Positions 14,882 to 42,248 of a DNA stretch of 45,516 bases are shown here, piece by piece. This DNA comes from Nanobdellota archaeon. GTDB lineage: Archaea; Nanobdellota; Nanobdellia; Parvarchaeales; Parvarchaeaceae. A program made the position numbers and the translations under genes. The DNA is taken from contig JAJZNV010000022.1 of assembly GCA_021852265.1 (NCBI GenBank), positions 1 through 45,516 of the forward strand, in the 5' to 3' direction. Each line of letters begins with the position of its first letter. Within the stretch, counting starts at the first letter, position 1. The notes beneath the pieces are model-generated. The model was not told where the DNA came from. It worked only from the letters and a program-made list of their open reading frames with translations, and did no database searches.

Positions 14882-16690
14882 TCAAGGAGCCCCGTTAAGA
14901 TATATATCAACGGCCTGCTCGAAACACTTGTCCCAATATCCAAATTCTTTCGCGGAAAACTCTTTCAGCGATGCATAAAACTTCGACTTGTCGTCTCTCA
15001 GCTGCTCTAAGTACGGCTGCATGTCTTTTAGAAGTTCGAACTCGGTATCCCCGTATCTGCACGCAAAGTTTAGAAGCCCTTTCAGTTCCACAACCGGTTT
15101 CGCATTTTCCGGTTGTTTATATTCTACGTATTTCTTAGTCATCTCACGCAGTTCCGGTAAATTGATTATATCCTGCAACTTTCCTAATTTTGGCAGTATT
15201 TTTTCCGGTTTTTCTGAAACCAGATATTCCTGTAGATTCTTTACATAAACATCAAATGGCACCTCTTCGTATTTCATAGCAAGGGCTAAAATACCATACT
15301 CCAGATTACCTCGTATGTCCGCAGATATGCGTTCGCTCAGATAGTTTCTGACTTCCCCCAGCGGAGAAGTAAAGGAATTGCTGCTGCTCTCATCATAGAA
15401 GGTGAAAATATCAAAGAAATTTATATCACGCTTATCCCCATTTGCCTCGACTTTAAGCAGATCTTTCATTAGTCTAGGAGAAAATCCCTGTGACCACCCG
15501 GAGACATAACTTCCGTTATCTACGATAAGTTTTTTAATCTTTTCGTTTAAATCGACCTCCTCTGTCACCACATCCATAAGAAAAGTTTCTATGCTCTTGC
15601 TGAAGTTATTTGTTTTTCCAAGCACACCCGAATCATACATATCCAGCACATCAAGGAGAGTATCCAACTCCAATGAGGTTTTGTCCTCTACAAGGGACTG
15701 GGACAGCCTTGAAAGTATATTCATTATCGATAGATATCGGAATGCATTTGGGAAGTACCTGTTTATTGGTAGCTTCGATGGAGAATATATTTTTTCCTCC
15801 TGTGAATAGGACAGGTTTCGTCTAACCTTAACTTCGATAAGCCTCTCTCTCAAAGGAAGGGATTCTTCGTCTTCATCCTCGTTATTATCTCCGATAAAAC
15901 GTTCATTACTGTGTATGACAACCAGCATATCTAATGGGATGCGCTTTCCATTTTTGTCAAAAAGATTATTGTCATACACATTTATAAGAAACTGATAGTT
16001 GCTCAAGGAGATGTCTGACAATTTACTTTTGTCGGCGCTTATCAGAAGAATACCTCTATTGGCGTTTTTAACAACGCTGTAAAAGTGCTCTTCAAATTCC
16101 GGATCTGCAAGGTCTATATTAGCAAACTGAGGAATGACCTCTTGCAAAGCGAGTCTCTTCCCCCCCTCTTTTTCTTCTTTGAGGCTTCTTTCATCGCCAT
16201 CAAAGAACTTCTGCAGCGACCTTTTTGATGCAACTTCCGCAAGCCCGTTTAAACACTCCGGACACACTTCTTGGCCATTGCTAAAAAATGTGACACCTTT
16301 CTTTTCTATTGGCAATTCAAAAGGTAGATCCGATCTGAAGAGGTTAAAGGCATTCTCTTTGTAAGGACATTGCTCATCATTTATTGAGAGCGTATAAAGT
16401 TTTTCGGAAGTGGTGGCCTCTCTTACTCCTTGGTAAAGCAATTTCTTAAGTCCTTTTATCAGCTCGCTCTTTCCACTTGCACTGGGTCCGCGAAGCAGGA
16501 TTATAGGTACATAGTTACGGCTTGCTAAGAACTCGGCTTTAAATAGGGCAGCAGTAAGATTATCCTTTACTTCCTTCATGCCAAAAAGCATTCCATCGAA
16601 TCCGGTCCGCAGTGCACCTTCATGTACTATCTGGCTTATCGATTTTTCTTTCGAACCTATCAGAACCTCAAGGGATACCTTCTCTACCAT
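14882..16690 (-). CDS. PrkA-like protein kinase/AAA ATPase, second divergent copy
   Basis: Walker A LLRGPSASGKSELIKGL; CPYKENAFNLF...CPECLNGL as in PrkA; adjacent to a second PrkA. Confidence 0.8.
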   Translation of the reverse strand: MVEKVSLEVLIGSKEKSISQIVHEGALRTGFDGMLFGMKEVKDNLTAALFKAEFLASRNYVPIILLRGPSASGKSELIKGLKKLLYQGVREATTSEKLYTLSINDEQCPYKENAFNLFRSDLPFELPIEKKGVTFFSNGQEVCPECLNGLAEVASKRSLQKFFDGDERSLKEEKEGGKRLALQEVIPQFANIDLADPEFEEHFYSVVKNANRGILLISADKSKLSDISLSNYQFLINVYDNNLFDKNGKRIPLDMLVVIHSNERFIGDNNEDEDEESLPLRERLIEVKVRRNLSYSQEEKIYSPSKLPINRYFPNAFRYLSIMNILSRLSQSLVEDKTSLELDTLLDVLDMYDSGVLGKTNNFSKSIETFLMDVVTEEVDLNEKIKKLIVDNGSYVSGWSQGFSPRLMKDLLKVEANGDKRDINFFDIFTFYDESSSNSFTSPLGEVRNYLSERISADIRGNLEYGILALAMKYEEVPFDVYVKNLQEYLVSEKPEKILPKLGKLQDIINLPELREMTKKYVEYKQPENAKPVVELKGLLNFACRYGDTEFELLKDMQPYLEQLRDDKSKFYASLKEFSAKEFGYWDKCFEQAVDIYLNGAP

Positions 16691-16712
16691 CAGGTTAAAA
16701 CTCCTTTAATAC

Positions 16713-18890
16713 TTACCGGGTGCTCTCAAAGAGCCCGTAAGCGACATCGGCACACCCACCCTTGCGGTCGCAGTATCCGTATTTTTCTTTTAATTTTCTT
16801 TGAACAGTTTCCCTTGCAAGGTTTGTCTTAAAGTTTATATCCGGTCTCATTAAGGTTATAAGACCTTTTACAAGGTTCGGATTCGTTTCGATTATTGCCT
16901 GTGCGATCTCGGCAAGTACCGTATCGTCAACCTTACCATCGTATCTTTCACGTATCCTATTTGATATCGTTGTAGCAATGTCACCAGCGTTCAGTCTTCC
17001 CTCTTTCTCGAGATCAGCTATGAATTTTTTATCTGTCTTTACCATCCTACCGTTATAGGGGAATGTTTCCCTACCAAGTTTCTCCTGGTATTTATGTAGA
17101 ACGTACCTGCTTATGTGCTCCCTAACCGCGTTATCTGCAGTATAACAGTTCGCAACATCCTCACCGGTACCATTTGAGTAAACGTCAAATGCTAAATTCA
17201 TCAGAGCCTTTCCTTTTTCACCGTGTACTCTTACTTTTGTTTCCTCGCTTATCCCTTCCATCGTATTTAGGAACATCTCGAGCCACTCAGTTTGCTTTTC
17301 TCCGCCGAATACCGCGTCAAGGCATAGCTCCTCTTCTTCTGCACGCTTACCATAGAGTTTTGACTGTACAGACCTTGCGTAATCAATAAACTTTGTTATT
17401 GATTTCTGCATCTCCCTGTAAGGAATACCGCGCTTTACACCTTCAGTTATCTCCAGAAGGGTCTTAGAATTCGCTTTTTTCTCAAGTTCCTCTGAAGTTA
17501 TTGTAAGCCCAAGCACTTTCTTTCCATCGTAAAGCTCTGCTTTCTGCTTTGGACTTATATTTGTCTCTTCATCCAACCCGCTCATAACCCATATATATGC
17601 GAGTGTTTTCAAGAATTTCGAGGAGTAATGAAACTTCAGCTTGCCCGCAGATTCTTCGAACATATTCTTCAGTGCCTGCTCCGCAGAACTAAGTTTTGTC
17701 ATCGATTTAAAGAGCAGTGCGTTTGTTCTACCCATAAAGTAATCCTTTAATGTAGAACCCAACTGTGAATACTCATCCAAGTTGGTTGTGCCGAGGAATA
17801 TCGCATCAAATGACTCTTTATAGGACTTGAACCTAGTCATTCTATCTTGTATAAGATCCAGAGCCGGGCTCTTAAACGATTCAGGCGCTTTCAGAACTTC
17901 ACTGAATACTATGATACCACCGCGTGGAGATGGTTTATTCTGTCCTCCTGCTACACCGGCACCGAGGACTAGTGGATTATTATTGTTTCCATTCAATAGT
18001 CCTAATAGACCATAATCTGTGTCTCCTCCGAAAACTGCTTTATAATCTAGGTTCTTCTCACCCAGGGCGATTGATGGCTTCACGACCGAGGCTATCTCAT
18101 TTTCAGAGGCCCTCTCTATACTCACAAGCCGCATCAATATCTCCTGCACAGTCTCCCTGTTTGCATCCAAGTCACCCAAGGTTTTTTCGAGTATTGTTTC
18201 TATGGAGGATTTGGTCCAAGTAGCAGATGAACTTTCCGATCCAAAGTCTATGTATATCTTTTTCCACGATTCGGATGTCGCATTGTTTATTTCAGAAATC
18301 ACTTCATCAAGCTTCTGTGATATCTGCGGGTACTGGGATCCAAGAAAAACTGAAAGGGCAGTGTGTGGTGCTAAGCCCGGTGCAAGAAATACCTTCTTGA
18401 AATTTCCGAAAGTCGATCTCATCTCCGTCCTAAATTCCTCAAATTTGAGCCTCGAGGGGAACAGGTCTTTTACAGCTTCCAGTGAACCGTCATCGACGTT
18501 GGCCTTCAACATGTATAGATCGTTCGTTTTTTCACCGTATACTTTTAAGGTCTCACCTATTATCTTTTCGCTTTCAGATTTACCGGATGCGGTTGGACCT
18601 ATGAACAGATTCAACTTGCTTCGTTCCTGTGGACTCTGCGTTGCAGATTTGAGTATCGTCATAAATGTATCTATCTGCTGGTCTAACCCATACAAATTAT
18701 TTATTCTTCTCCTGTCGTTTGGTTGTAAACGGATAAAATTCCAAGTGCCATCAGTTCTTCCATACGAAGAAAGTGCTGCGTAACCTCTTTGCGCGGCATT
18801 AAAAAAGACTTCTGGTTTTCCTTTTGCGAATTCCAAGAATTCGTCAAGAGACATTCGTGCTTTCAATGACATAATTTCCTCCTCCCTCAC
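16713..18890 (-). CDS. PrkA-family serine protein kinase/AAA ATPase
   Basis: LFIGPTASGKSESEKIIGE Walker A; RGGIIVFSEVLKAP; C-terminal kinase-like domain. Probable start MSLKARMSL at about 18872 with an upstream GGAGG. Confidence 0.85.
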   Translation of the reverse strand: MREEEIMSLKARMSLDEFLEFAKGKPEVFFNAAQRGYAALSSYGRTDGTWNFIRLQPNDRRRINNLYGLDQQIDTFMTILKSATQSPQERSKLNLFIGPTASGKSESEKIIGETLKVYGEKTNDLYMLKANVDDGSLEAVKDLFPSRLKFEEFRTEMRSTFGNFKKVFLAPGLAPHTALSVFLGSQYPQISQKLDEVISEINNATSESWKKIYIDFGSESSSATWTKSSIETILEKTLGDLDANRETVQEILMRLVSIERASENEIASVVKPSIALGEKNLDYKAVFGGDTDYGLLGLLNGNNNNPLVLGAGVAGGQNKPSPRGGIIVFSEVLKAPESFKSPALDLIQDRMTRFKSYKESFDAIFLGTTNLDEYSQLGSTLKDYFMGRTNALLFKSMTKLSSAEQALKNMFEESAGKLKFHYSSKFLKTLAYIWVMSGLDEETNISPKQKAELYDGKKVLGLTITSEELEKKANSKTLLEITEGVKRGIPYREMQKSITKFIDYARSVQSKLYGKRAEEEELCLDAVFGGEKQTEWLEMFLNTMEGISEETKVRVHGEKGKALMNLAFDVYSNGTGEDVANCYTADNAVREHISRYVLHKYQEKLGRETFPYNGRMVKTDKKFIADLEKEGRLNAGDIATTISNRIRERYDGKVDDTVLAEIAQAIIETNPNLVKGLITLMRPDINFKTNLARETVQRKLKEKYGYCDRKGGCADVAYGLFESTR

Positions 18891-31987: not shown

Positions 31988-34273
31988 TTATTCACATTTG
32001 GTGTAGCCGCAGCTCTTACAAACATAGCACCCGTTCTCAAATATCAGGGTGTGCTGCTTACACGAAGGGCACGTATTGGATTTTATACTGCCACCATCGA
32101 TTATGGCATGGAGAGTGACGTTGGGTGTGTTAATATCCCTTTTTTTCAGCGCTAGCTCTATACTCTTAGCGATGGCGTCCGGCACGGAAAACAGTTGCAT
32201 GCCATTAAACCATGTTGATGTACCGCCTTTTATGCCCTTAAGGATGGTTACTATTCTAGCCGCATTACCGCCGGATTGCAAATAAACGCTTATGAGTCTA
32301 CCTATAGCTTCTGTATAACTCTTTTCCAGGTCCCCTGATCTCCCCATATTTATGAATATCTCTTTTATCTGACCATCGTCATTCTTATTTATCGTGACGT
32401 AAAGATTGCCCTGGTTAGTCGGAAGTTTAATTGTGGTGCCTATCATCATGTACGGCCGCGTTTCCTCTTTTGTCATCATTTCTGCACCAGATTCCTCCAG
32501 TGCATTGCCACTGTCCTCCTTCTCTTCTATCTCTGTAAGGATATTCTTTTTTGAACCTTCTCTATAAACGGTTATCGATTTGCAGCCGAGCTTCCATGCA
32601 TACATGTATATTTTGTCAACAACACTCTTATCTGCAGTTTCTGGAAGGTTGACAGTAGAGGATATAGATGAGTCTATGTGCTGCTGTATAGTTGCCTGCA
32701 TTTTTACTCTGAACAATGGATTAATTTTATGAGCAACGACAAATATGTCAGGCAGGTCTTTTTTATTCTTAATTCCAAATTTTACCATATAGTTATTTGC
32801 TACAGGTTCGAGGACCTCAAAATTTTCGGCGGATAACGATTCAGATCTTCTTATATAACTAAGAGCATACACAGGTTCCACACCGCCACTTACTCCGGTC
32901 ATAGTTGATATACTGCCGGTCGGGGCAATTGTCAGTATGCAGCTATTTCTAAGTCCTTTCTCCGCTATCTTTTTCTTTAACTGGTCGGATAGCCTTTTAA
33001 CGAAGTCTCTCTCCAGATGTTTTTCGCTATTAAATCCCTTAAAAGAGCCTTTTAAGACGGAGAGATTTGAACTTTCATCGTAAGCTATCTCTTTTAATCT
33101 TCTAAAAAGTTCATTAGCAAATGTTACTGCCGCATCAGAGTCATATTTTATCTTCATATTTATCAACATATTCGCGAGACCCATAACGCCTAACCCTATC
33201 CTTCTTTCGTACATGCTTTGTTCTGCCTGGGCTTTTAACGCATGACGAGAATAGCTGTAATCTAAAACATCATCCAGGAATCTAACTCCATATCTAACCG
33301 TCTTTTCAAGGTTTTCCCAATCCACTGATGCCTTATCGGTGAATGACTCCAGCACGAATTTATCCAAGTTTATCGCACCTAAATCGCATGCGCCATAATT
33401 CGGCAAAGGCTGCTCTCCGCACGGATTTGTTCCATTCAGGCACATTCGTTCATCATATTCGGTTGGAGATTCTCGTTTTATTCTGTCCCAGAACATTATG
33501 CCAGGATCACCGGTATTTAATGCAGTGTCTACGATTTTATCCCACAGCGCTCTTGCGTTTATAGTGGTCCTTTTCTCCACTCTATCATTTTTGAAATAAA
33601 GCTCGTAATCCTTGTCATTTTCGACTGCATGCATGAAATCATCGTATAATTTTACGCTGATGTTAGCAAACCTTACGCTCACCTTGTCTGCCTTCACCAT
33701 TACAAATTCCTGTATGTCAGGATGGTGTACATCCATTGTAATCATAAGAGCGCCTCTGCGCCCCTGTTGACCTATCAAACCAGTCGTTACGGAGTATAAC
33801 TCCATAAATGATACGGCACCTGTTGTAAATCTCGCAGCGTTATTTACTAGTGTTCCTACAGGTCTTAAGATAGAAACGTCTATGCCTACACCGCCTCCAT
33901 AAGAGTAAGTTTTAGCCATTTCTTTTGCACAGTCGTATATCCCTTCTATCGAGTCATGTTTTAATGGAAGATAATAACAGTTAAGAAGCGTTGCGGTATG
34001 ATTTGAACCCGCACCGAATAATATCCTCCCACCCGGTACGAATTTAAAATCTTCTAAAAGCCAATAGAATTTTTTTTCAAATTCTTTCTTCGCTTCGTCA
34101 GACGACTCAACGCTTGCTATCGCCTTCGAGATACGTTTCCACATCTGAGTCGGAAGAGTTTCTAATTGGTTACCATCTAAGCCCCTTAGCGCATATTTCT
34201 CAAAGAAAATTCTTGCCTGCAACTCATTATTTTTAAAAAATTCTAGTGTTTCTTTAGGCAATTTAACTGGCAT
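31988..34273 (-). CDS. nrdJ: adenosylcobalamin-dependent (class II) ribonucleoside-diphosphate reductase
   Basis: LNCYYLPLKHDSIEGIYDCAKEMAKTYSYGGGVGIDVS; NPCGEQPLPNYGACDLGAINL; APTGSISTMTGVSGGVEPVYALSY; C-terminal zinc ribbon CPSCKQHTLIFENGCYVCKSCGY. Confidence 0.93.
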   Translation of the reverse strand: MPVKLPKETLEFFKNNELQARIFFEKYALRGLDGNQLETLPTQMWKRISKAIASVESSDEAKKEFEKKFYWLLEDFKFVPGGRILFGAGSNHTATLLNCYYLPLKHDSIEGIYDCAKEMAKTYSYGGGVGIDVSILRPVGTLVNNAARFTTGAVSFMELYSVTTGLIGQQGRRGALMITMDVHHPDIQEFVMVKADKVSVRFANISVKLYDDFMHAVENDKDYELYFKNDRVEKRTTINARALWDKIVDTALNTGDPGIMFWDRIKRESPTEYDERMCLNGTNPCGEQPLPNYGACDLGAINLDKFVLESFTDKASVDWENLEKTVRYGVRFLDDVLDYSYSRHALKAQAEQSMYERRIGLGVMGLANMLINMKIKYDSDAAVTFANELFRRLKEIAYDESSNLSVLKGSFKGFNSEKHLERDFVKRLSDQLKKKIAEKGLRNSCILTIAPTGSISTMTGVSGGVEPVYALSYIRRSESLSAENFEVLEPVANNYMVKFGIKNKKDLPDIFVVAHKINPLFRVKMQATIQQHIDSSISSTVNLPETADKSVVDKIYMYAWKLGCKSITVYREGSKKNILTEIEEKEDSGNALEESGAEMMTKEETRPYMMIGTTIKLPTNQGNLYVTINKNDDGQIKEIFINMGRSGDLEKSYTEAIGRLISVYLQSGGNAARIVTILKGIKGGTSTWFNGMQLFSVPDAIAKSIELALKKRDINTPNVTLHAIIDGGSIKSNTCPSCKQHTLIFENGCYVCKSCGYTKCE

Positions 34274-34456
34274 AATTCTCCACGATCACCTTAGATAAGT
34301 TTTTTATTGTTTTTAAATATAATTGAATAAAAATTCTATTATTAATCTGAGCTGCAAGAGCAACCTATTTCGCTACAACGGCAACTTTTCACTTGTGACT
34401 ACAGTATTTAGATTTACTGAACTCATAAAGATCTAAATTAATCCAAAAAGAACATG

Positions 34457-34474
34457 ATGATGATGTCGACGCAC
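34457..34474 (-). repeat. 3' arm of 16S pre-rRNA processing stem
   Basis: ATGATGATGTCGACGCAC is perfectly complementary to 36013-36030. Confidence 0.85.
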
Positions 34475-34507
34475 TTAAATATGACCTCACTGATTTAATT
34501 TTATAAA

Positions 34508-36011
34508 AAAAGGAGGTGATCCAGCCGCACGTTCCCGTACGGCTACCTTGTGGCGACTTAACCCTACTCACTGAACCTAGACTCGGTTATCATTATATTA
34601 CGACAGTCTCATCTAGGTCCAACTTGTCTGGTTTGACGGGCAGTGTGTGCAAGGAGCAGGAAAGTATTCACCGCGCTTTGTTGAAACGCGGTTACTACGG
34701 ATTCCGACGTTCACGAGGCTGAGTTACAAACCTCGATTCGAACTAGGGTAAAGATTGGAGGATTGGCTCCTCCTTTCGGAGTTGCTTCCCATTGGCTTTA
34801 CCATTGCAATTCGCGTGTAGCCCAGCGGATTAGGGTCATACTGACCTACCGTCGCCCTCACCTTCCTCTTCCTTTCGAAAGCTGTCTCCATATTTTGCTC
34901 GTTCATGACGGATCATACGTTAGCAAATATGGAAGAGGGTCTTGTTAGTTACCCGACTTAACGGGACGTCTCAAGATACTAACTGATGATGGCCATGCAA
35001 CACCTCTCAGCGCATTAGGCAAGTTCTTCAGACTGGCCTTCATCTTGCTGTCGCTGCTGGTAAGATTCCCGGAGTTGAATCCAATTGAACCGCAAATTTC
35101 ACCCGTTTTTGTGCTCCCCCGCCAATTCCTTTAAGTTTCGACCTTGCGATTATACTCCCCAAGTGGCTTACTTAACGCCTTCGCTGTCACACTGCATTTC
35201 CTCAAGGAAATGCAACGTATAGTAAGCAGCGTTTACTGCTAGGGCTACCCGGGTATCTAATCCGGTTCGTTCTCCTAGCCTTCGTCCCTCACCGTCAGGT
35301 CCGTTCTGGGAATGCGCCTTCGCCACTGGTGGTCTTTTCCAGATTAAAGGATTTTACTCCTACCTAGAAAGTTCCCATTCCCCCTCCCGGCCTCTAGTCT
35401 GAAAGTATTCGTACCATGTCGTCCAGTTAAACTGAACGATTTAAGCACGAACTATTCAGACCAGCTACGAACGCTTTAGACTCAATAATAATGGTCACCA
35501 CTCGGGCGACGGGTATTACCGCGGCTGCTGGCACCCGTTTGCCCCGCCCTTATTCGCCATGCCATTTAAAAACATGGCAAAAGTTCCTTCTTAAAAAGAA
35601 GAAACACTTGGGATTCCCCTATCACGCTTTCGCGCATTGTAAAGTTTTCGGAACTGCTGCACGCCGTAGCGCTAGGGTCCTTGTCTAAGTACCCTTCTGG
35701 GGGAAACCACTTCCATGGCCCCTACTGATTTTAGATTTGGTGAGCCGTTACCTCACCAACAGTCTAATCAGGCATAGACCGATCGTAATGCGGTGTATTA
35801 TGGTATTAACAATAGCCTTTGACAATAAAATCGTTTCAGAGATTATTGCTATGGAGTATTAACCTCAGTTTCCCGAGGGTATCCTCCTCATTACGGTACG
35901 TTATCTATGTGTTGCCTCAGCCGTACGCCATCTACTCTTACCGAGCAGATATAACTTGCATGTCTCATGCGAATCCCAATAGCAGTGACCTCCAGCAGGA
36001 TCAACTGGAAT
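34508..36011 (-). rRNA. 16S ribosomal RNA (archaeal)
   Basis: 5' ATTCCAGTTGATCCTGCTGGAGG; GTGCCAGCAGCCGCGGTAATACC; AAACTTAAAGGAATTGGCGGGGGAGCAC; 3' CGGCTGGATCACCTCCT. About 1504 nt, no obvious intron. Confidence 0.97.
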
Positions 36012-36012
36012 T

Positions 36013-36030
36013 GTGCGTCGACATCATCAT
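36013..36030 (-). repeat. 5' arm of 16S pre-rRNA processing stem
   Basis: GTGCGTCGACATCATCAT (plus strand) complementary to 34457-34474. Confidence 0.85.
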
Positions 36031-36190
36031 GCATGAATATGAATTTATGCACTCACTTTCTCTCATCTGCCTGCGAAGGCATCGAATGCTTCTCTATTTC
36101 TATAATATGAAATCGTGTCTTCAACGCACCGAAATTCGGCACTCTGACGCATCCGGGATATTATAGATATTTAGTTAAAATGATGGTATG

Positions 36191-36203
36191 TGTTTAAATA
36201 CTT
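36191..36203 (-). promoter_or_regulatory. putative rrn TATA box
   Basis: Minus strand AAGTATTTAAACA upstream of the 16S leader. Confidence 0.5.
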
Positions 36204-36257
36204 TATGAAAGAGGAAATTAATGATGAAATGTCTAGATTTCAGTTTTTATTTACAAG

Positions 36258-36821
36258 ATGGGTAACATTAAAATGAGACGTTTCATCTTATATTCAAGGA
36301 CAGGGCAAACGGCACCATTTGTTGGTTCATTAATGGATGCGGGAAGACTTGACATAGTCTATCAGTGCATATTTACATCAATGTTTGCCTCGCACGCTAT
36401 AAGACGGGATACGGAATTTCATGCCTTTTTGTATGGCGCACCTATTCCGCCTGTCCATGTAGCAGTAGATGGTAAAACCTTACACGATGTTAGAATAGAC
36501 GAGAACACATGGAGGAGCATACTGAATAATTTATTGGCTGGAAAAGATCATCCTGGCATTTCATCCAAAAAAGAGGGAATAGAGGGCTTCTCTAAAGATT
36601 TATCAGAAACGTACGTGCTGAGTGAAAAAGGGGATCCAATCGAAGAGTTAAAATTCAGTTCTCCATCTTTTTTTGTTGGTGATAACGTTGGTTTACCAAA
36701 AAAGTTTGAAGACCTGCTATTAAAAAACGGTGCGAAAAAAGTATCTATAGGACAAGAACGTTATCTTGCGGCATCGACTATCGATATAGTCAATTACATA
36801 CTTGACAAAAAAAGAATCTGA
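36258..36821 (+). CDS. trmY: tRNA pseudouridine-54 N1-methyltransferase (TrmY)
   Basis: GRLDIVYQCIFTSMFASHAIRRDTEFHAFLYGAPIPPVHVAVDGKTLHDVRIDE; FVGDNVGL...SIGQERYLAASTIDIVNYILDK match the TrmY family pattern. Confidence 0.85.
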   Translation: MGNIKMRRFILYSRTGQTAPFVGSLMDAGRLDIVYQCIFTSMFASHAIRRDTEFHAFLYGAPIPPVHVAVDGKTLHDVRIDENTWRSILNNLLAGKDHPGISSKKEGIEGFSKDLSETYVLSEKGDPIEELKFSSPSFFVGDNVGLPKKFEDLLLKNGAKKVSIGQERYLAASTIDIVNYILDKKRI

Positions 36822-40206: not shown

Positions 40207-40695
40207 TTATGCCAAGTTGGATTTTTTGTCTTTAATTTCCCTGACATAATTCAAAATTCCGGGCATCATATCCTGGGCGTTTTTTACTTTTATGATATTA
40301 CTAACATTAAGGTCCGAATCCAAAAACACTGCTGCATTGGTTACTCCACCAGTTACTTTCTTTAGTCCGCAAGCCGAGATAAACTCTTTCTTCGTATCGC
40401 TTAATAAGGAGAAATTGAGTTTATTCTCATTCCTTAACGCACTAAGACTTTCTGGACTGCCGTCCAATACCACGTAAACCGTCGGCACCGTGTCTTTTAG
40501 TTTAGAGATATTGTCTCTCAGGTCCCAAAGCTCTTTTATATGAGAATGTGTCCCATCATCTTTTAAAAATAGAAGGAGTGTTTTGTTGCCATACAACATT
40601 TCAGAGGTTACGCTGCTGCCGGAGTCATCTTTAAGTACAAAATAAGGCAATTTATGCCCCGCATTGAGTCTCATATATAATTTATCTGCTGACAC
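40207..40695 (-). CDS. peroxiredoxin/thioredoxin-fold protein (AhpC/TSA-like); start ATG 40674 or GTG 40695
   Basis: MRLNAGHKLPYFVLKDDSGSSVTSEMLYGNKTLLLFLKDDGTHSHIKELWDLRDN...FSLLSDTKKEFISACGLKKV. Confidence 0.65.
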   Translation of the reverse strand: MSADKLYMRLNAGHKLPYFVLKDDSGSSVTSEMLYGNKTLLLFLKDDGTHSHIKELWDLRDNISKLKDTVPTVYVVLDGSPESLSALRNENKLNFSLLSDTKKEFISACGLKKVTGGVTNAAVFLDSDLNVSNIIKVKNAQDMMPGILNYVREIKDKKSNLA

Positions 40696-40696
40696 T

Positions 40697-40809
40697 TGGG
40701 GCTGCCAGGATTTGAACCTGGATCAACTGGTTTCTACTAATCATCCCTAAAAGGTCATTTTTCCAGTCTAGCTGGAGCCAATTGTTCTGCCGGATTAGAC
40801 TACAACCCC
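40697..40809 (-). tRNA. tRNA-Trp(CCA) with about 40-nt intron
   Basis: GGGGTTG...CAGCCCC A73; anticodon stem ATTGG/CCAGT, loop CTCCA...; T arm CCAGG-TTCAAAT-CCTGG; 113 nt = 73 + 40. Confidence 0.88.
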
Positions 40810-41340
40810 TCACGTAAATATCTTATACTTGTCTTTATTCTCCATTTCTTCAAATATTCTGCCCTCTACCCCGCGGGCTATATTTGAGGAAAGCTGGAGC
40901 CTTTCGTTGAGTTCTGAATAGGATTCAAACGCTTTCTTCTTTCTCTCCTCTAATAACTTTTGGGTCATTTTTTTACCCATCCCTGGAATAAGTTCCAGAG
41001 CGTGCAGCCTAACGTTTATAGGTCCAAGTGTGTTTATTATACCAATGTATTTCTTCTCGTTGTCTATTACTGCTTTCTGGATCAGACTATTCAGAGTGTC
41101 CATACCGGATGAATTAAGTTTATCCGGCGTTATCCGCTCTATTATATGATGTATCTCTTCTCGCTTGTTTTCGCCTATGTAAACTTTCTTGCCTGATTCT
41201 ACCACTACATCCTTTTTCAATGCGGCAAGTAAAAGTGACAATGAATCGGTTAATATTATAGCGGAAGGGTGCCTATCACGCGAATTTGGCATGCCATATG
41301 GGAGATATTCGATTACATCCGCGTATTCATCTTTTCCCAT
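40810..41340 (-). CDS. DUF655-family protein
   Basis: YADVIEYLPYGMPNSRDRHPSAIILTD; LHALELIPGMGKKMTQKLLEERKKKAFESYSELNER; conserved order L21e-RpoF-DUF655. Confidence 0.88.
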   Translation of the reverse strand: MGKDEYADVIEYLPYGMPNSRDRHPSAIILTDSLSLLLAALKKDVVVESGKKVYIGENKREEIHHIIERITPDKLNSSGMDTLNSLIQKAVIDNEKKYIGIINTLGPINVRLHALELIPGMGKKMTQKLLEERKKKAFESYSELNERLQLSSNIARGVEGRIFEEMENKDKYKIFT

Positions 41341-41362
41341 ACCAGTTTTAGCCCGCCCTCGA

Positions 41363-41686
41363 TTATAAATGCTTCTTTAATGCGGATAGAATTTTCTTTA
41401 TATCGTCTTCTTTTATAGTCGATTTAAGGGGTGCTAATATGGCTCTGACTTGATCAATAGAAGAAGGGGCAACATCGACTAACATTCTGATGTAATCCTC
41501 TCTTATATCTAAGTTAAGTGCCAAAATATCATTGAATGCTTCCTCAAAATTATTCGCTTTTACATTTTTCTTAATGTGCTCAACAAGTTTTTTCCCGGTT
41601 TCGTAATTAGTATCAATATAATCCAGATATTTCTCCTTTAGTTCCGTCTCACTAATCAGCTTTTCGTCTATTATTTCGTATTCCAT
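41363..41686 (-). CDS. rpoF: RNA polymerase subunit F (Rpb4-like)
   Basis: Position between L21e and DUF655 plus C-terminal APSSIDQVRAILAPLKSTIKEDDIKKILSALKKHL. Confidence 0.85.
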   Translation of the reverse strand: MEYEIIDEKLISETELKEKYLDYIDTNYETGKKLVEHIKKNVKANNFEEAFNDILALNLDIREDYIRMLVDVAPSSIDQVRAILAPLKSTIKEDDIKKILSALKKHL

Positions 41687-41687
41687 T

Positions 41688-41978
41688 TTACAGTTTCTTA
41701 AGGTGTATTGGGAGCATATCGACCATTTTACACATCTTGCCCTGCATCACTTCGATAGTGTATGCTTTTCCCTTCTTTTGCAGAACTGTGCCATTTATAC
41801 CAAAAAATCTGCGGTGTGGTATATTTTTTTGGAAGTAGGGGCTTGGGTCTATAATTACCTTGTCTCCAAGATTGAAAGTCTGGAGTGCTTTTTTCAAGTC
41901 TATCTGCCCCTTATCCTTAACCCTAAGAGCAAGCCTTCTTCTAGACCTTTTATGCGCACCTCGTCCAGTTATTGACAT
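41688..41978 (-). CDS. rpl21e: 50S ribosomal protein L21e
   Basis: GAHKRSRRRLALRVKDKGQIDLKKALQTFNLGDKVIIDPSPYFQKNIPHRRFFGINGTVLQKKGKAYTIEV. Confidence 0.93.
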   Translation of the reverse strand: MSITGRGAHKRSRRRLALRVKDKGQIDLKKALQTFNLGDKVIIDPSPYFQKNIPHRRFFGINGTVLQKKGKAYTIEVMQGKMCKMVDMLPIHLKKL

Positions 41979-42039
41979 ATCTATATGTTAGCCAATTTAG
42001 AGTATTTATACCTATCTAATCACACGAGCTAAACTCGAC

Positions 42040-42122
42040 TGCGGAAGGAGGGATTCGAACCCTCGAAGGCCTGAGCCATAAGGTCCTTAGCCTTACGCGT
42101 TTGACCGCTTCGCTACCTCCGC
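42040..42122 (-). tRNA. tRNA-Leu, apparent anticodon AAG
   Basis: Class II: acceptor GCGGAGG/CTTCCGC, A73, T arm GAGGG-TTCGAAT-CCCTC, anticodon arm TAAGG-CTAAGGA-CCTTA, 14-nt variable arm. Confidence 0.85.
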
Positions 42123-42248
42123 ATCAAACTCTTTATTGTACACCAAAACTTATAAACATATTACACTTCTCGTGTGTGCAGCGATGCTTTTAAATGTTTT
42201 TAAATTGCTCTCGCAACTAGTTCTTGCCCCGACACATTCTTAAAGGAC

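Follow-up and report, generated by a model that had tools for sequence, protein, structure and literature searches.

The question raised by this locus was whether an archaeal ribosome could be built around a P-site wall whose bases differ from those that are near-invariant elsewhere, and, if so, how such a wall came about. The window, i.e., the whole 45,516-nucleotide stretch analysed (contig JAJZNV010000022.1 of assembly GCA_021852265.1, a Nanobdellota archaeon), carries a 16S rRNA gene that a preliminary description had singled out for substitutions at E. coli positions 1400, 1498 and 1499 in the decoding centre. The answer we favour, with a probability of roughly 0.7, is that this would be the functional and sole 16S of a tiny, uncultivated Parvarchaeota archaeon, in which the P-site wall has drifted under relaxed or shifted constraint.

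The 16S rRNA gene

The gene lies on the minus strand at 34511-36011 and is complete, its cmscan match to the covariance model RF01959 being full length (model positions 1-1478, 1362 bits). It is also the sole SSU match in the assembly (776 kb in 26 contigs, 88% complete), and the second, canonical 16S that would have made this copy suspect was looked for there and not found. The flanks of the gene can be joined by RNAfold in a precursor processing stem of roughly 22 bp (18 + 4 bp), whose 5' arm is at 36013-36035 and whose 3' arm, GUGCGUCGACAUCAUCAUCAUG, is at 34453-34474, both on the minus strand. The 3' end of the 16S has an intact anti-Shine-Dalgarno sequence, CACCUCC, and the helix 45 loop is a normal GGAA. 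Compensated base pairs across 16 relatives, unlike what would be expected of a relaxed pseudogene, indicate that the gene is most likely functional, with putative expression and assembly into 30S subunits.

Three substituted bases in the decoding centre

Read on the minus strand, the 5' side of the top of helix 44 (E. coli 1392-1407; GCACACACUGCCCGUC, 34635-34650) runs from 34650 to 34635 as GCACACACTGCCCGTC, with T at 34642, and the 3' side with the linker to helix 45 (E. coli 1491-1504; UAAGUCGCCACAAG, 34547-34560) reads AAGTCGCCACAAGG from 34559 to 34546, with C at both 34553 and 34552. The Rfam archaeal consensus at the two sites is CACACCGCCC and AAGUCGUAaCAAGG. The E. coli numbering was confirmed against two aligned controls, E. 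coli rrsB and a haloarchaeal 16S, both of which have C1400, U1498 and A1499, and the three substitutions proved to be exactly where they had been placed: U1400, otherwise C, at 34642; C1498 at 34553; and C1499, A elsewhere, at 34552. Their assignment to the P-site wall was also right, and the window 16S has none of the three universal elements of that wall (C1400, a uridine at 1498 capable of becoming m3U, and A1499). By the same alignments, G530, A1492, A1493, 1402, 1403 and 1500-1506 are normal. As described, the pairs 1409-1491 and 1410-1490 are both A-U, and the compensatory C-G pair reported in helix 45 is 1514-1521, which within the family is C-G in 7 genes, U-A in 6 and G-C in 3.

What these bases do can be seen in the 30S initiation complex of P. 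abyssi (PMC7005279). The 34:3 base pair, formed by tRNA position 34, has C1400 stacked on it, m3U1498 is the base on which the first two codon nucleotides stack through their riboses, and an m6A1500-Cm1402 pair holds the mRNA backbone. U1498 has been called universally conserved (PMC5774723), and m3U1498 is described as occurring in all domains (PMC7005279); the same source gives it for E. coli, T. thermophilus, P. abyssi and human, and an unmodified U for yeast. The window 16S resembles that of P. abyssi in its helix 44/45 architecture, A1492/A1493, C1402, C1403, A1500 and the GGAA loop of helix 45, but has U, C and C where P. abyssi has C1400, U1498 (as m3U) and A1499 (PMC7005279); a C at 1498 cannot become m3U.

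There are two close precedents. The U1498C change of Mycobacterium smegmatis, the same U-to-C as here, is cited in PMC5774723 as viable, with weak hygromycin B resistance; going by that citation, it was presumably a lone mutation made in the laboratory, A1499 and C1400 staying as they were, whereas the Parvarchaeota change is fixed in a lineage and accompanied by two others. Nanoarchaeum equitans, also of the DPANN archaea, has likewise lost part of a supposedly universal P-site modification pattern, although the part differs: as cited in PMC7897474, it is the KsgA/Dim1 dimethylation of A1518/A1519 that is missing, while in the present case KsgA genes are there and the target base of m3U1498 has gone.

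Distribution in the class and beyond

The window 16S shares 87-96% identity with that of MAGs whose records name them Candidatus Parvarchaeota, Nanoarchaeota or Acidifodinimicrobium, and 78% with that of record L020, which, together with the Rehaiarchaeum record L181, has the same decoding-helix motif. From these identities and the common motif, the family of the window (family f1) can be taken as Parvarchaeota-type DPANN archaea. U1400, C1498 and C1499 are found together in 16/16 of its alignable genes, which come from three genera and independent assemblies, and this, with the coherent pairing, bears out the earlier view that they are not sequencing errors. Whether they were lineage-wide had been left undecided; they are, though less singular than proposed, and they are of three different ages.

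That last point came from a survey of 142 SSU genes from the class surrounding the window, all read at the decoding helix. Only L031 has A1499, the other 141 having C. At position 1498, 111 genes have U, 15 have A and 16, all from Parvarchaeota, have C, and position 1400 is C in 95 and U in 47, with 16 of the uridines in the family and 31 outside it. When GTDB genomes, one for each species, were scanned with the pattern AAGTCGCNACAAGGTANCCGTA, 42 stretches came up. Going by record titles, they are mostly from Parvarchaeota/Nanoarchaeota and Aenigmatarchaeota (three are labelled just "archaeon" or "bacterium"), and the motif turned up in assemblies of Parvarchaeota, Acidifodinimicrobium and Rehaiarchaeum that independent studies had produced. 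The Aenigmatarchaeota with C1498 have mostly C1400, and A or C at 1499, and their presence in the scan places C1498 in at least two DPANN groups. On these counts, it is only C1498 that marks Parvarchaeota (and some Aenigmatarchaeota), C1499 being near clade-wide and U1400 recurrent. The preliminary description had named commonness in a known archaeal clade as what would speak against novelty; the changes are indeed common in known clades, and they are a lineage trait, not the mark of one exceptional genome.

The 16S genes of some relatives have a feature of their own close to the decoding helix, an intron-like sequence that interrupts helix 45 just past GUAGCCGUA in L182, L201, L204 and L216 and lies a few bases further 3' in L175. 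L175, L182, L201 and L204 are Aenigmatarchaeota by deposition, and L216 was deposited just as "archaeon".

Covariation and tempo

The paired bases beside the substituted ones have also changed, and have done so in step. In the class and the E. coli control, 1404-1497 is C-G in 135 genes or U-A in 8, and 1405-1496 is G-C in 134 or A-U in 9, with zero broken pairs at either; L007, L009, L013, L011, L015 and others are among those in which these near-universal pairs have been swapped to U-A and A-U. With the decoding-helix columns left out of the tree, the changes number at least 3 for 1404-1497 and at least 9 for 1405-1496, and for the single positions at least 12 (about a dozen) at 1400, at least 8 at 1498 and at least 2 at 1499. 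Positions 1401-1403, 1406, 1407, 1492-1494 and 1500-1506 are invariant in the survey. The family departs specifically at 33 positions that both controls and the bulk of the class conserve, several of them in compensated pairs, e.g., 936-1379. So many deviations mark the whole SSU as fast-evolving, and the decoding-centre changes appear to be part of this generally fast evolution of an SSU still under pairing constraint.

Drift or rewiring of the P site

The reading that we favour, drift under relaxed constraint, runs as follows. The sequences show that C1499 goes back to an ancestor shared by most of the class, that U1400 and C1498 are fixed in Parvarchaeota, that bases which pair with each other in this helix are kept paired through compensation, and that A1492, A1493, G530, C1402, C1403 and A1500-U1506 are unchanged. 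Codon nucleotides 1 and 2 would then pack on C1498, and U1400 would stack on the wobble pair; METTL5 and A1500 are retained, although the bases around the METTL5 site differ. The viability cited for the M. smegmatis U1498C mutant, and contacts that are mainly to the backbone or by stacking, suggest that exchanging one pyrimidine for the other (U to C at 1498, C to U at 1400) is survivable, so that the P-site codon would still be held. The price would be the loss of m3U1498 methylation, and fixation may have been allowed by constraint that was relaxed or had shifted in archaea with such small genomes.

The most serious competitor, though we regard it as unlikely, is a specific adaptive change, i.e., that the P site was rebuilt in concert with the wobble bases of tRNAs and the enzymes that modify rRNA, with U1400 and C1498 suiting an altered decoding. 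The presence of C1498 in Aenigmatarchaeota and the repeated changes at 1498 and 1400 could also reflect directional selection, and the genome of the window does have tRNAs with A34, namely Leu(AAG) and Pro(AGG) (the locus of this observation in the window is 42039-42123, minus strand). Pro(AGG) is found in at least seven other genomes of the family (G004, G014, G015, G016, G018, G021 and G027), and a TadA-type enzyme probably does not convert its adenosine to inosine, since G004 and G015, which are 98-100% complete, gave no match to the deaminase family PF00383. A strict coupling of U1400 to A34 tRNAs was rejected, however, because G056 has Leu(AAG) with C1400, and A34 can thus do without U1400. 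For a coupled change at 1400 and 1498, the independent-pair test gave no significant link, with too few informative pairs, and an altered tail of uS9 can be discarded, its C-terminal arginine being kept (SYR).

The modifying enzymes also have a bearing on rewiring, which can point to two KsgA-type genes in the family. One encodes KsgA/Dim1 (G000:C4:51388-52014, 6 kb past the window) and matches TIGR00755 with 204 bits against a cut-off of 171; the other encodes a second member of the KsgA family (G000:C3:16009-16722), which at 117 bits is under that cut-off (the two proteins are labelled L312 and L313). The pair is found in most genomes of the family, and many other families of the class are without a strong match. 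KsgA/Dim1, an altered form of which had been suggested earlier as something to look for, is present, even as two members of the family, and the loop that it targets is normal; a loss of KsgA in the Parvarchaeota family was rejected on the presence of these two. The boldest version of rewiring, that several DPANN lineages have replaced the universal P-site grip (C1400, m3U1498, A1499) and re-tuned it with A34 tRNAs and a duplicated KsgA family, amounting to a naturally re-engineered decoding centre, strikes us as equally doubtful.

Still less probable is a correction at the level of RNA, whereby C1498 is edited or otherwise modified and the mature ribosome is near-canonical. The local modification network would be at least partly alive, in that an orthologue of METTL5, the enzyme for the neighbouring A1500, is retained with its NPPF motif (G000:C13:17266, E 4e-22 to METTL5 chains 6h2u/9ohl). 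Its target context, which we take to be UAACA, is replaced by CCACA in the window 16S, and most of the class has UCACA or ACACA there; A1500 itself is kept, and the orthologue is expected to methylate it, with putative activity on CCACA. We know of no enzyme for rRNA C-to-U editing here, and the RsmE family (PF04452) is absent from all 54 relatives and the archaeal controls, so that its loss together with U1498 cannot be the discriminator. An artefact of assembly or sequencing, or an additional, degenerate copy of the rRNA gene, is hardly credible even though the source is an 88% complete MAG, as are all of the genomes compared, since the same bases are present in 16 related genomes and in independent studies, and the copy is single and intact, with compensatory pairs and a processing stem.

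The change itself is real and inherited, with drift and compensated pairs visible around it. Drift is the reading that we prefer, and the lineage change is less singular than first proposed. A search of the open literature, outside which most subscription journals lie, found no published description of DPANN decoding-centre variants, and the P-site bases of Parvarchaeota are likely novel. With C1498 in one lineage and A in sister groups, these archaea offer a natural experiment on which P-site contacts a living ribosome needs. They are predicted to be without m3U1498 and to have an altered sensitivity to hygromycin B. Common 16S primers (presumably, 1492R covers 1498-1499, and 1392R and 1406R cover 1400) are predicted to mismatch, leaving these archaea under-represented in amplicon surveys.

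Gene neighbourhood

There is no LSU match in the window, and the 16S stands alone; its neighbours, within 31988-36821, are the genes for a ribonucleotide reductase (31988-34273) and for an RNA methyltransferase of PF04013 (36258-36821). An L21e-Rpb4-DUF655 block (40207-41978) is present, then an intron-containing tRNA-Trp (40697-40809); ksgA, presumably the usual archaeal neighbour of DUF655, is about 10 kb from this block and does not adjoin DUF655. At 14882-18890, two adjacent large proteins have weak, partial matches to PrkA-type AAA domains.
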